In this document: piece after piece, positions 1,758-8,068 of the stretch
How the letters are laid out: each line of letters opens with the position of its first letter
Position numbering within the stretch: the stretch's first letter is position 1
Assembly: GCA_021161545.1 (NCBI GenBank)
Contig: JAGHAJ010000177.1
Location: 1 to 8,068 of the forward strand
Reading direction: 5' to 3'
DNA length: 8,068 nucleotides
Source of the DNA: Synergistota bacterium
GTDB taxonomy: Bacteria; Synergistota; JAGHAJ01
Translations under genes and position numbers: made by a program
Notes under the pieces: generated by a model
What the model was told of the DNA's origin: nothing
Database searches by the model: none
Seen by the model: only the letters and a program-made list of their open reading frames with translations

Positions 1758-2138
1758 TTGGACGAAAAGTATCTGGCGATTTCGATTGCAAGAGAACTCG
1801 AGGGCAAAAAAGCAGAGAATATAGTTGTGTTGTATGTTGGTGAAGAAACGATAATTGCTGACTATTTTATTATATGTACAGGTAGGTCGTCTTTACATAT
1901 ACACTCTCTGGTTGATGACATTGAGGAGTTTACACTGAAGCTGGGGCGTGTCCCTTTACATGTGGAGGGTGAGCGTGGTAGCAGGTGGATATTGATGGAC
2001 TATGGAGATATAGTTGTTCATATATTTAACAGGGAAGGTCGCGAATTTTATGCACTTGACCGTTTATGGGGAGGTGCTAAAATCGTTTCTTATAAGGAAA
2101 CAGAGGTGAATAGTGATGAGGGATCTCAGCAGGTTTAA
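1758..2138 (+). CDS. rsfS: Ribosomal silencing factor RsfS (RsfA/Iojap family)
   Basis: A 126-residue cytoplasmic protein, the full family length. It binds ribosomal protein L14 (uL14) on the 50S subunit and blocks 30S joining, shutting down translation during starvation. Family motifs visible are the strand and helix around ADYFIICTGRSSLHIHSLVDDIEE (read in two parts, about 32-55), then WILMDYGDIVVHIF (about 77-90) and REFYALDRLWG (about 94-104). The ribosome site AGGAGG (1744-1749) straddles the end of the LCP gene. TTG at 1758 is 8 nt from it, and TTG at 1755, one codon earlier, is nearly as good. The 3' end overlaps the start of the zinc-finger gene by 23 bases, implying translational coupling. 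The last 15 or so residues are polar and less typical of the family. No anomalies are seen in the core. Confidence 0.93.
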   Translation: MDEKYLAISIARELEGKKAENIVVLYVGEETIIADYFIICTGRSSLHIHSLVDDIEEFTLKLGRVPLHVEGERGSRWILMDYGDIVVHIFNREGREFYALDRLWGGAKIVSYKETEVNSDEGSQQV

Positions 2139-2457
2139 GCCAATGCTTAAGAAGATGCGTGAAGACCTTATTGCAGGTCTAAAAAAACTCGATGAGAGTT
2201 ATGAAAATGAGTTAACTCCTGAAGAAGTTGAGCTTTCTGACCATATGAGAGAACTAAAGAGGATAAATAGGGAAAGATCATTGATAGAGGATACATTATC
2301 AAAGGTAGAAGAAGCTCTGAAAAGATTTGATGAGGGCACTTACGGTAAGTGTATAGATTGCGGTAGAGATATAAGTATAGAGAGACTGGAAGCTGTACCA
2401 TATGCACAGAGGTGCCTTGAGTGTAAGAAAAAATACGAAAAGGGGTTGAGAGGTTGA
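2116..2457 (+). CDS. DksA/TraR-type C4 zinc-finger protein (YteA-like)
   Basis: A 113-residue protein with a long, highly charged helical N-terminal part (about 1-75, heptad-like, probably a coiled-coil hairpin) followed by a C4 zinc finger, GKCIDCG ... RCLECKK. DksA proteins insert their coiled coil into the RNA polymerase secondary channel and, with ppGpp, reset promoter choice during starvation. YteA-like members of Gram-positive-type genomes share the fold but are poorly characterised. The helical hairpin tip appears to lie around PEEVELSDHMREL. It has acidic residues, but I cannot show the exact Asp-x-x-Asp-x-Ala pattern of E. coli DksA, so a true DksA function is inference. The start is ATG at 2116, 9 nt after GAGG (2103-2106) inside the end of rsfS; GTG at 2113 is an alternative. 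Its TGA overlaps the TTG start of gltX (TTGA at 2454-2457), so gltX is probably translationally coupled to it. Confidence 0.85.
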   Translation: MRDLSRFKPMLKKMREDLIAGLKKLDESYENELTPEEVELSDHMRELKRINRERSLIEDTLSKVEEALKRFDEGTYGKCIDCGRDISIERLEAVPYAQRCLECKKKYEKGLRG

Positions 2458-3770
2458 TAAGGGTAAGATTTGCACCAAGTCCGACAGGGGCATTGCACAT
2501 AGGTGGAGCCCATACAGCACTGTTTAATTGGTTATTTGTGAGACGTGAAGGTGGTAGGTTTGTCCTGAGGATAGAGGATACAGATAGGGTACGTTCAACC
2601 AAGGAGGCTGAAAAGACTATACTTGATGGCCTTCAGTGGTTAGGTATCACATGGGATGAGGGGCCATTCTATCAGTCTGAAAGGTTAAACCTTTACAGGA
2701 GATATGCAGAACAACTATTGGAAAACGGACTGGCTTATAAAGAAGGTAGTGCCATAGTATTTCGTACTCCAAGAGAGGGAGCTACATACTTTAAGGATAT
2801 CGTCTGGGGAGATATAGAGGTAGAGAACGGTTCTTTAAAGGATATAGTCTTGATTAAATCTGATGGTATGCCTACCTATAACTTTGCAGTGGTTGTCGAT
2901 GACCATACAATGGGTATTACCCACGTTATTAGAGGGGAAGATCATATACCCAATACACCGAAGCAAATTCTTATATATAAAGCTCTTGGCTTTGAAGTGC
3001 CAGAGTTTGCTCATCTGCCTATGATTTTGGGCCCTGATAAGACTAAACTCAGTAAACGTCACGGTGCAACAGCTGTAGGAGAGTACAGGAATATGGGATA
3101 TCTCCCTGAGGCTGTATTTTACTACCTTTCCCTCCTTGGCTGGAGCCCAAAGGAGGAAGGGGATATCCTTTATCCTCAGGAGATTGTAAAACTCTTTGAC
3201 CTGAGGGACGTTACAAAGCGTGCAGCGGTGTTTGACCTTGAGAAGTTGAAATGGATAAATAAGCTTTTTATAAAAGATAAGTCTCCTGCAGAGCTGGCTA
3301 AAGCCATGCGTTTCTTCTGGTTGGAGAAGGGTTATAATATAGATGATTATCCAGAATCGTATCTACAAGATGTTGTAGCTATTTTGCAAGGAAGGGCTTA
3401 TACGTTGCAGGAGTTGGCAGACTACAGTGATTACCTCTTGAAAGAGAGCCTGAATTATGATAAAATTATTCTTGCAGAGTTTATAGGGGTTATGAAGGGA
3501 GAAGAATGGAATTCTCTCATTGAGGAGATAAAGAAGATAGATCCTTTTGTTGTGGAGAACATTGATAATGCAGTAAGGTCATGGCTAAATAAGCGGGGTG
3601 TGAAATTAAAAGGTGTAGGACAAGCATTGCGATATGCCTTGACAGCACGGCGAGTTACACCTGGCATATTTGAAGTTATGACTTTGCTGGGTAAAGATAG
3701 GGTTGTAGATAGGTTAGAAAGGGCAGTTAGTTTAGTGGTTGGGGAATCGTCTAATTGGCAGGACGCATGA
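2454..3770 (+). CDS. gltX: Glutamyl-tRNA synthetase, short form lacking the zinc-binding insert; 3' end overlaps tRNA-Gln
   Basis: A 438-residue class I synthetase that attaches Glu to tRNA-Glu and, in non-discriminating or GluRS2-type forms, to tRNA-Gln for later amidation by GatCAB. The Rossmann start RFAPSPTG with HIGG (15-18) and KLSKRHG (198-204) are the two class signatures, and RGEDHIPNT and the helical anticodon-binding half (about 290-425) are present. It is shorter than the usual 465-490 residues. After LLENGLAYK (about 96) the sequence jumps to IVFRTPREG, so the roughly 40-residue segment carrying the CxC...YxxxC zinc ligands and the Tyr-Asp-Gly region is missing, with the frame intact. 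KLSKR at 198 against about 237 in E. coli fits one internal deletion. The start is TTG at 2454, with AGGGG (2441-2445) 8 nt upstream. The last nine codons and the TGA (3768-3770) lie inside the tRNA-Gln gene, giving a tail GESSNWQDA beyond the normal family end. Confidence 0.94.
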   Translation: MIRVRFAPSPTGALHIGGAHTALFNWLFVRREGGRFVLRIEDTDRVRSTKEAEKTILDGLQWLGITWDEGPFYQSERLNLYRRYAEQLLENGLAYKEGSAIVFRTPREGATYFKDIVWGDIEVENGSLKDIVLIKSDGMPTYNFAVVVDDHTMGITHVIRGEDHIPNTPKQILIYKALGFEVPEFAHLPMILGPDKTKLSKRHGATAVGEYRNMGYLPEAVFYYLSLLGWSPKEEGDILYPQEIVKLFDLRDVTKRAAVFDLEKLKWINKLFIKDKSPAELAKAMRFFWLEKGYNIDDYPESYLQDVVAILQGRAYTLQELADYSDYLLKESLNYDKIILAEFIGVMKGEEWNSLIEEIKKIDPFVVENIDNAVRSWLNKRGVKLKGVGQALRYALTARRVTPGIFEVMTLLGKDRVVDRLERAVSLVVGESSNWQDA

Positions 3771-3814
3771 CTCTGGATCATGTAGTGGTGGTTCGAGTCC
3801 ACCTTCCCCAGCCA
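3740..3814 (+). tRNA. tRNA-Gln (anticodon CTG), CCA encoded, overlapping the end of gltX
   Basis: A complete cloverleaf of 75 nt including CCA. Acceptor 3740-3746 (TGGGGAA) pairs with 3804-3810 (TTCCCCA). D-stem GTC 3749-3751 pairs with GAC 3762-3764, and the D-loop contains GG (3757-3758). Anticodon stem CATGA 3766-3770 pairs with TCATG 3778-3782 around loop CTCTGGA (3771-3777), so the anticodon is CTG at 3773-3775. The variable loop is TAGT (3783-3786). T-stem GGTGG 3787-3791 pairs with CCACC 3799-3803 around TTCGAGT. The discriminator is G3811 and CCA is 3812-3814. The weak U1-A72 first pair and G73 are typical of bacterial tRNA-Gln. The first 31 nt are also gltX coding sequence, and the gltX stop is in the 5' half of the anticodon stem. 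I see no convincing tRNA promoter just upstream, so it is probably processed from the gltX transcript. Confidence 0.96.
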
Positions 3815-3821
3815 TTTTTTT
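3815..3821 (+). terminator. T7 tract directly after the tRNA CCA (possible transcript end)
   Basis: Seven consecutive T follow the encoded CCA. A run like this often marks the 3' end of a tRNA transcription unit. No dedicated hairpin abuts it: the T-stem ends 11 nt earlier and the acceptor strand lies between, so a classical intrinsic terminator is not established. If it works, it would end the yqeK-gltX-tRNA operon here and separate it from psuG. Confidence 0.3.
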
Positions 3822-6266: not shown

Positions 6267-6294
6267 TTGACACCATTGAATACAGTGGTATAAT
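6267..6294 (+). promoter_or_regulatory. Near-consensus sigma-70/sigma-A promoter for the mutase gene
   Basis: TTGACA (6267-6272) and TATAAT (6289-6294) are both perfect hexamers, separated by 16 bp, with TGG before the -10 giving an extended -10. The predicted start is near 6301, about 158 nt upstream of the GTG of the mutase gene. It lies 20 bp after the stop of the Nudix gene, so the mutase is its own transcription unit. A promoter this strong in front of a metabolic gene suggests that control acts downstream or through a repressor. Confidence 0.85.
6272..6289 (+). promoter_or_regulatory. Imperfect palindrome inside the mutase promoter spacer (candidate operator)
   Basis: ACCATTG (6272-6278) and CAGTGGT (6283-6289) form an inverted repeat with 6 of 7 positions paired around AATA, centred between 6280 and 6281. 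It touches the last base of the -35 and the first base of the -10, so a bound dimer would block RNA polymerase. The regulator is not known from this window; a GntR-, TetR- or MerR-class protein would be conceivable. Confidence 0.4.
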
Positions 6295-6410: not shown

Positions 6411-6434
6411 GCCTGGCAGAAGGGCCAGGCTTTT
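6411..6434 (+). terminator. Terminator-like hairpin in the mutase leader
   Basis: GCCTGGC (6411-6417) pairs perfectly with GCCAGGC (6424-6430) around a six-base loop (AGAAGG), extendable by A6410-T6431, and is followed by TTTTGATTT. The stem is GC-rich and the T-run is short and interrupted, so termination would be partial. It sits 28 bases before the GTG of the mutase, upstream of the ribosome site, which fits attenuation rather than the end of a gene. Confidence 0.45.
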
Positions 6435-6444
6435 GATTTATGGG

Positions 6445-6458: not shown

Positions 6459-8068
6459 GTGTTCAAAGAAGAAGAGCTTCAAAAGATTTCTCAAAAACGT
6501 GGAGAATGGGAAGAAAAAACTAAGAAAGTATTGCAGAAGCATCCTGAGATGAGGGATAGTTTTCGTACCCTTTCTGAGATACCTGTAGAGAGGGTGTACA
6601 CCCCTGAGCATGTAAAGGACATGGACTATGTGGAGGACTTGGGCTTTCCCGGTGACTACCCTTATACTCGTGGTGTCCAACCAACAATGTATAGAGGAAG
6701 GCTGTGGACACTGAGGGAATATGCTGGCTTTGCTACTGCTGAAGAGTCAAATAAAAGGTACAAGTATCTTATAGAACAGGGGCAGATGGGGTTAAGTGTT
6801 GCTTTCGACTTACCTACGCAGATAGGATATGACTCTGATCATCCTATGGCACATGGAGAGGTTGGTAAGGTGGGTGTTGCGATTGACTCTCTCAAAGATA
6901 TGGAGATATTATTTGATGGCATTCCTCTGGATAAAGTGAGTACTTCCATGACAATAAATGCACCGGCTACAGTAATATGGGCCATGTATATTGCCGTTGC
7001 TGAGAAGCAGGGAGTTCCCATGGAGAAACTCAGGGGGACAATTCAGAATGACATTTTGAAAGAGTACATAGCGCGTGGAACTTATATTTTCCCTCCAGAG
7101 CCTTCTTTGAAACTTATAAGGGATACATTTGAGTTCGGGACTCAGAAGGTACCACTCTGGAATACAATAAGCATAAGCGGGTACCACATAAGGGAAGCAG
7201 GTTCTACTGCAGTTCAAGAGGTAGCTTTTACACTTGCAGATGGTATTGCTTACGTGAATGCTGCTGTCAAAGCAGGTCTTGACCCAAATAAGTTTGGACA
7301 GAGGTTATCTTTCTTTTTCAATGCGCAACAAGACTTTCTTGAGGAAATTGCAAAGTTTAGGGCTGCAAGGAGACTGTGGGCACGTATAATGAGGGAGAGA
7401 TTTGGTGTTACAAATCCAAGAGCACTTACCCTAAGATTTCATACCCAGACTGCAGGAGTTTCTCTAACGGCTCAACAGCCAATGGTAAACATTATTAGGA
7501 CAACGCTTGAAGCCCTTTCCGCGGTGCTTGGAGGTACACAGTCCATGCACACGAACTCTTATGATGAAGCTCTGGCACTTCCTTCTGAGGAATCTGTTAC
7601 AATTGCAATGAGAACTCAACAGGTAATTGCGTATGAATCTGGTGTTACAAACACGGTCGATCCACTTGCAGGCTCTTACTATATTGAATATCTTACTAAC
7701 GAAATAGAGAAGAGGGCAATGGAGTACATAGAGAAGATAGACGAACTTGGAGGAATGCTTGCTGCTATAGAGAAAGGGTATCCTCAGCAAGAAATACAGA
7801 GTAGTGCCTATAACTATCAAAAAGCGGTAGAGAGCGGAGAAAGAATAGTTGTCGGCGTTAATAAGTTCGTTGTAGAAGAGGAGGAGATGCCGAAGAACTT
7901 ACTCAAAGTGAATCCAGAGATAGAGGTTGAGCAAAGTAAGGGGCTTAAAGAACTCAGGGAAGGCAGAGATAATTTGAGAGTTAAGGCAGTACTTGAAGAC
8001 ATAAGGAAGGTTGCGAAAGAAGGCAAAGAAAACCTTATGCCATATTTCATAGAAGCAGTGAAGGCTTA
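6459..8068 (+). CDS. Methylmalonyl-CoA mutase, large (catalytic) subunit of the split type, 3' end outside the window
   Basis: The frame is open from GTG 6459 to the right edge (536 whole codons plus 2 bases). The split-type catalytic subunit is usually about 545-560 residues, so little is missing. It interconverts methylmalonyl-CoA and succinyl-CoA with adenosylcobalamin in propionate and succinate metabolism; the B12-binding domain is a separate small protein, normally encoded downstream. The TIM-barrel hallmarks are [16 protein letters not shown] (about 76-91), [19 protein letters not shown] (about 111-129), [11 protein letters not shown] (193-203), [11 protein letters not shown] (238-248) and [16 protein letters not shown]. 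Tyr78 and Arg206 correspond to Tyr89 and Arg207 of the Propionibacterium enzyme, which hold the methylmalonyl carboxylate. Isobutyryl-CoA mutases differ at these sites, so methylmalonyl-CoA is favoured. Tyr242-His243 are the active-site pair. Expression starts from the strong promoter at 6267-6294 through the structured leader. Confidence 0.93.

Follow-up and report, generated by a model that had tools for sequence, protein, structure and literature searches.

Here, we report that the coding sequence of gltX, encoding a glutamate--tRNA ligase (GluRS), ends inside the gene for tRNA-Gln(CUG) in a Synergistota genome, and that the same nesting is found in a second family of this deep-branching bacterial lineage. 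We propose, as an explanation that is on balance probable, that this is an old nested arrangement in which the tRNA has a separate, putative promoter within gltX and in which a conflict between RNase P and the ribosome is tolerated. The window, by which we mean the whole 8,068-nt stretch of DNA that was analysed, is contig C94 of G000, a Synergistota genome with a size of 1.58 Mb and a completeness of 82% that is the sole member of its family (f1) in the genome collection used. The second family, f3, was sampled with four genomes (G002, G004, G006, and G008; loci L084 to L087); with f1 being a single 82%-complete metagenome-assembled genome (MAG), comparison between f1 and f3 spans only two lineages. 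When 185 genomes from across the Synergistota were searched, 165 had gltX and 159 had tRNA-Gln.

In the window, gltX occupies positions 2454 to 3770 of the plus strand and encodes 438 amino acids between a TTG start and a TGA stop (3768-3770), with a product that belongs to the bacterial GluRS as judged by profile TIGR00464 (467.1 bits against a curated cut-off of 289.95). The tRNA-Gln gene (3740-3814, plus strand) was called by ARAGORN and by Rfam RF00005 (60.6 bits, E 1.5e-11) and has the features of a functional gene, namely a canonical cloverleaf, a CUG anticodon and an encoded CCA; it is 97% identical to an intergenic tRNA-Gln of family f5. The two genes share 31 nt (3740-3770, plus strand), which in gltX are the third base of codon 429, codons 430 to 438 and the TGA, and in the tRNA are the acceptor 5' strand, the D arm and the 5' anticodon stem. 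The 31-nt overlap, including the gltX stop, had been pointed out in a preliminary description of this DNA and is confirmed by ARAGORN, RF00005, ORF calls and TIGR00464 together. Since the TIGR00464 match stops at residue 423, the tRNA-coded residues 430 to 438 here fall C-terminal to the conserved domain; the C terminus reads RLERAVSLVV, followed by the tRNA-coded residues ending in NWQDA.

Several features of the surrounding sequence are recorded here for completeness. A dksA/TraR-family gene (2113-2457, plus strand) adjoins gltX, an adjacency also present in f3, and its stop overlaps the gltX TTG start. The short GluRS of the window is without ~48 residues of PF00749 (98-146), the gap falling at residues ~96-103; this gap is common to the short GluRS orthologues of f2, f3, f5, and f7, and the stretch concerned, a Cys-containing part of the catalytic domain, is kept in the second GluRS of f3 and f5. 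Directly after tRNA-Gln, a run of seven T (3815-3821, plus strand) is a possible transcript end that was not called by the terminator scan. Further downstream, a mutase-like gene at 6459 is preceded by a strong promoter, TTGACA-16-TGGTATAAT (6267-6294), and by a G+C-rich hairpin with a T run (6412-6440) that matched no Rfam family.

The gltX orthologue ends inside tRNA-Gln(CTG) in all four f3 genomes, three of which (G002, G004, and G006) have complete loci with tRNA-Glu(CTC) 21 to 23 nt 3' of tRNA-Gln, while the contig of G008 (L084) ends inside the tRNA. Among the Synergistota loci read, gltX and tRNA-Gln meet solely in f1 and f3. The preliminary description had allowed that the overlap would reduce to a local loss of the stop codon if gltX of relatives stopped upstream of the tRNA; the nearest family has the overlap too, which rules out a stop loss confined to one genome. 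The f3 overlap is 15 nt long and in a different frame, reading TGG GGA ATC GTC TAA (W-G-I-V-stop). In the window, the corresponding stretch of the tRNA, TGGGGAATCGTCTAA (3740-3754, plus strand), is preceded by 17 nt more than in f3, so that gltX is read through it in another frame. The 31-nt overlap would change to the f3 form through a small indel 5' of position 3740, and an assembly or frame artefact of this kind deserves consideration, with f1 represented by one MAG, the exact 31-nt frame seen in that one assembly, and the W-G-I-V-stop reading present one frame away. We nevertheless hold it to be very improbable, as the junction is without a long homopolymer and the tail RLERAVSLVV resembles the C termini of other bacterial GluRS, e.g., RLDRAIAFV; moreover, an overlap exists under either reading.

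The residues that the tRNA contributes in f3 have counterparts across the phylum. The GluRS of other Synergistota families have, in 24 of 26 cases, a C terminus in register with W-G-I-V that consists of an aromatic residue, in general a G, and a hydrophobic pair, and all four f3 proteins have this aromatic-G-hydrophobic-hydrophobic ending encoded by tRNA codons; the f1 protein is without a W-G-I-V-type ending and has a tail like those of other bacteria. The W-G-I-V ending thus appears to matter to the protein, since it fits the motif with which almost every sampled Synergistota GluRS ends. A vestigial tRNA in the gltX of crown Synergistota was considered and, on nucleotide identity, rejected, the 6 to 10 matches in 15 nt being not clearly above what the amino-acid motif leads one to expect.

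RNase P cleaves at the tRNA 5' end, and messages without a stop are handled by tmRNA. The terminator scan of the window gave no terminator-like site between gltX and the tRNA, and a gltX mRNA with its own stop therefore extends through the tRNA 5' half and, very probably, as far as the tRNA 3' end. The cleavage point expected from the tRNA 5' end (3739/3740, plus strand) lies upstream of the gltX stop; a cut there would leave a non-stop gltX message, as previously suggested and as borne out by the gene layout together with known RNase P and tmRNA biology. In f3, a message cut at the tRNA 5' end would terminate in a complete Arg codon. We found tmRNA in nine of nine genomes tested, with the tags AEEPAYALAA in G000 and ADYGYAMAA in G004 and G002. 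The leader UGGU, part of the Val-Val codons (3736-3739, plus strand), can pair with GCCA (3811-3814) to give an 11-bp acceptor stem. Leaders ending in GGY and able to pair with a 3'-end RCC are frequent in G000 and f3, with pairing of at least three pairs in 4 of 36 and 23 of 71 tRNAs, respectively (~3% expected by a rough estimate), and a special meaning of the gltX leader pairing was discarded because such pairing is common among tRNAs of these genomes.

Known systems resemble this geometry in part. The E. coli secG-leuU co-transcript of mRNA and tRNA likewise has a tRNA downstream of a coding sequence that is cut from a longer RNA, but its stop codon precedes the tRNA, so that processing leaves the reading frame intact. 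In mitochondria, tRNA excision determines where mRNAs end and may take away a stop or help to complete one; there, however, stops are completed by polyadenylation, whereas in this bacterial operon the tRNA itself contains the gltX stop. Closest in consequence is arfA of E. coli, in which an endonuclease removes the mRNA stop codon, the product becomes a tmRNA substrate, and both the formation of the non-stop message by RNase III and its control by trans-translation have been shown experimentally (PMC3989581). The gltX geometry, with tmRNA present, fits non-stop regulation of the arfA kind, though arfA uses RNase III and a hairpin where gltX would use RNase P and a tRNA, and control of gltX in this manner would be hypothetical. 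A limited search of the open-access literature returned no bacterial precedent for an mRNA stop conserved inside a functional tRNA, and no direct precedent for gltX/tRNA co-transcription, for a tRNA/CDS overlap combined with RNase P and a non-stop mRNA, or for tRNA promoters inside upstream genes.

Whether the tRNA has to be cut from the gltX transcript depends on where its own transcription could begin. A promoter scan identified TTGAAA-N17-TAAAAT with an extended -10 TGA inside gltX (3438-3466, plus strand; predicted start ~3473), which agrees with a sigma-70-type promoter at 10 of 12 hexamer positions plus the TG (spacing criterion 16-18 nt) and is the only good promoter site upstream of tRNA-Gln in the window, 273 nt before the tRNA. 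The element, TTG[AC]AA-N17-TGATAAAAT, occurs in all five overlap genomes (f1 and the four of f3), falls in f3 on the same gltX codons, with the tRNA 253 nt further on, and is absent from the sampled gltX of other families. A codon test, independent of the scan, singled out the same region: in a stretch of about amino acids 326-338 (3429-3466, plus strand), six of six invariant degenerate columns have identical codons in the five genomes, compared to 22 of 199 such columns gene-wide. This six-column run is the longest in gltX (permutation p 1.25e-4), the longest run in two control sets being 1. Recognisable tRNA promoters of G000 consist of TTGACA or TTGAAA, a 16-18-nt spacer and TATAAT or TAAAAT, and end 8-18 nt before the tRNA; those of tRNA-Met and tRNA-Ala, TTGAAA-17-TAAAAT, match the internal element. 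No proximal tRNA promoter was detected by the scan within the 60-120 nt preceding tRNA-Gln in the window, and in the f3 genome G004 the best site within 60 nt upstream of tRNA-Gln(CTG) reached 6/13, versus 10-12 for most lead tRNAs. Counting against an internal promoter, a start ~267 nt upstream of a tRNA is unusual for bacteria and contrasts with the 8-18 nt of the recognised promoters of G000, and the synonymous constraint may instead mark an RNA structure or an internal start. Nonetheless, tRNA-Gln is probably made mainly from the putative promoter inside gltX, and codons of gltX may do simultaneous duty in protein, tRNA and promoter. Given a constrained promoter-like element within gltX, excision from the gltX transcript is not required as a source of the tRNA. 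Of the preliminary description, then, the overlap and the non-stop geometry stand, reinforced by conservation in f3, while the gltX transcript as the source of the tRNA, against which a dedicated tRNA promoter had been named as decisive, is not supported.

The window genome contains two further same-strand overlaps of this kind, between tadA and tRNA-Ser(CGA) (23 nt; contig C112, L243, tRNA at 1885-1971) and between a long FtsA/PilM-like ORF and tRNA-Arg(CCG) (10 nt; contig C246, L001, minus strand); the TadA profile score of 146.4 bits is just below the NCBIfam cut-off of 150. In f3, no coding sequence overlaps tRNA-Ser(CGA) or tRNA-Arg(CCG). These cases point to general compaction, with stops inside tRNAs apparently arising repeatedly in the lineage, and they weaken the case for a gltX-specific purpose. 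Along with further overlapping genes of the window, for example rsfS and dksA with 26 shared nt (2113-2138), they lend some weight to compaction as the whole explanation, according to which a tightly packed genome lost the gltX stop through deletion, the reading frame then ran on to a stop inside the tRNA, and RNase P cuts gltX mRNA too seldom to have an effect. We consider this unlikely in view of the persistence of the overlap in f1 and all four f3 genomes, the fit of the tRNA-coded W-G-I-V to the GluRS C-terminal motif of the phylum, and the synonymous constraint at the internal element. The gltX overlap is set apart by its conservation, by the f3 tRNA codons that spell out the motif, and by the promoter-like element.

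The enzyme and the tRNA are also linked through charging. GatB is present in f1 and f3, and a search for class Ic synthetases in both gave only GluRS-sized proteins and no GlnRS. In the indirect pathway, tRNA-Gln is first glutamylated by GluRS; with GatB present and no GlnRS seen, tRNA-Gln must be glutamylated by some GluRS. The window GluRS is the sole one seen in the 82%-complete G000, and f3 has a second. Its closest solved structure is T. maritima GluRS2, in entry 3al0 with GatCAB (GatC), and GluRS1 of A. ferrooxidans charges tRNA-Gln(CUG) but not tRNA-Gln(UUG) (PMC3927822). By analogy, the pairing of the gltX synthetase with the CUG isoacceptor is suggestive. A tRNA-Gln(UUG) is encoded elsewhere in G000 and f3, and tRNA-Gln(CUG) may thus be dispensable by wobble. 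The preliminary description envisaged a built-in feedback, in which the gltX transcript would be the source of tRNA-Gln and the outcome between RNase P and the ribosome would decide whether synthetase or tRNA is made, each controlling the other. In favour of this, the layout does not allow one RNA molecule to give both products at the same time, tRNA-Gln depends on a GluRS for its charging, the nearest solved relative was found with GatCAB, and the overlap is kept in two families. Weighed against this, the constrained internal element gives the tRNA its own supply, and a tRNA is needed in large amounts for which the gltX mRNA alone is, on general knowledge, an improbable source; the tadA and tRNA-Arg(CCG) overlaps occur in the same genome, and the frame and length of the gltX overlap differ between f1 and f3, so that the exact geometry is not conserved. 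Feedback between gltX and the tRNA is possible, if unproven, and as the main explanation we judge it quite unlikely.

The linkage of the two genes extends beyond the phylum. In the order of Desulforudis (Bacillota), tRNA-Gln follows gltX in 24 of 36 compared genomes, with the same genes, order and strand as the f3 gltX-tRNA-Gln(CUG)-tRNA-Glu(CUC), but the spacer is always positive (24-114 nt at the loci that were read; as much as ~840 nt when measured from the match end), most spacers read hold TATAAT-like boxes near the tRNA, and no overlap was seen. The tandem tRNA-Gln(CTG)-tRNA-Glu(CTC) lies directly after gltX in a Desulforudis genome, 0.7-2.2 kb after it in two Krumholzibacteria and one Acidimicrobiales genome, and away from gltX in families f5 and f11; gltX followed by this pair, directly or within ~2.2 kb, was seen in several phyla (L005, L016, L024, L033, and L160-L189). 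A GatB tree groups f1 with f3 (support 91/88), and gltX trees place both basal in the phylum, their order unsettled (AU 0.136 and 0.135). The simplest reading would be one origin of the gltX-tRNA linkage, with the spacer worn away in f1 and f3 and the tRNAs relocated in the remaining families. A bolder version, which seems to us distinctly doubtful, makes the overlap itself ancestral to Synergistota: the tRNA 5' end would have become the GluRS C terminus, the motif would be a fossil left after the tRNA pair departed from most families, and the live overlap in f1 and f3 would set a competition between RNase P and ribosome that tunes GluRS to tRNA-Gln.

For the nested arrangement with its own tRNA promoter, we propose that gltX and tRNA-Gln(CUG) (plus tRNA-Glu(CUC) in f3) were neighbours in an arrangement inherited by two related families, and that the spacer shrank until the gltX stop fell inside the tRNA, the usual proximal tRNA promoter probably being lost. 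The tRNA would then be transcribed mainly from the promoter in the gltX codons, ~270 nt upstream (~250 in f3), and excised by RNase P, while the longer gltX operon mRNA would also read through the tRNA. On that mRNA, a ribosome at the gltX stop would keep the tRNA 5' half unfolded, and a message cut by RNase P would lose its stop and pass to tmRNA handling, a cost that would be tolerated; promoter activity, RNase P cutting of the gltX mRNA and tmRNA rescue are each what we infer from sequence. If so, a tRNA-processing enzyme would become a potential mRNA inactivator, in a system made up of a synthetase and a tRNA dependent on a GluRS for charging, and these bacteria would offer a natural test of how cells cope with one RNA that is both read by ribosomes and folded as a tRNA.
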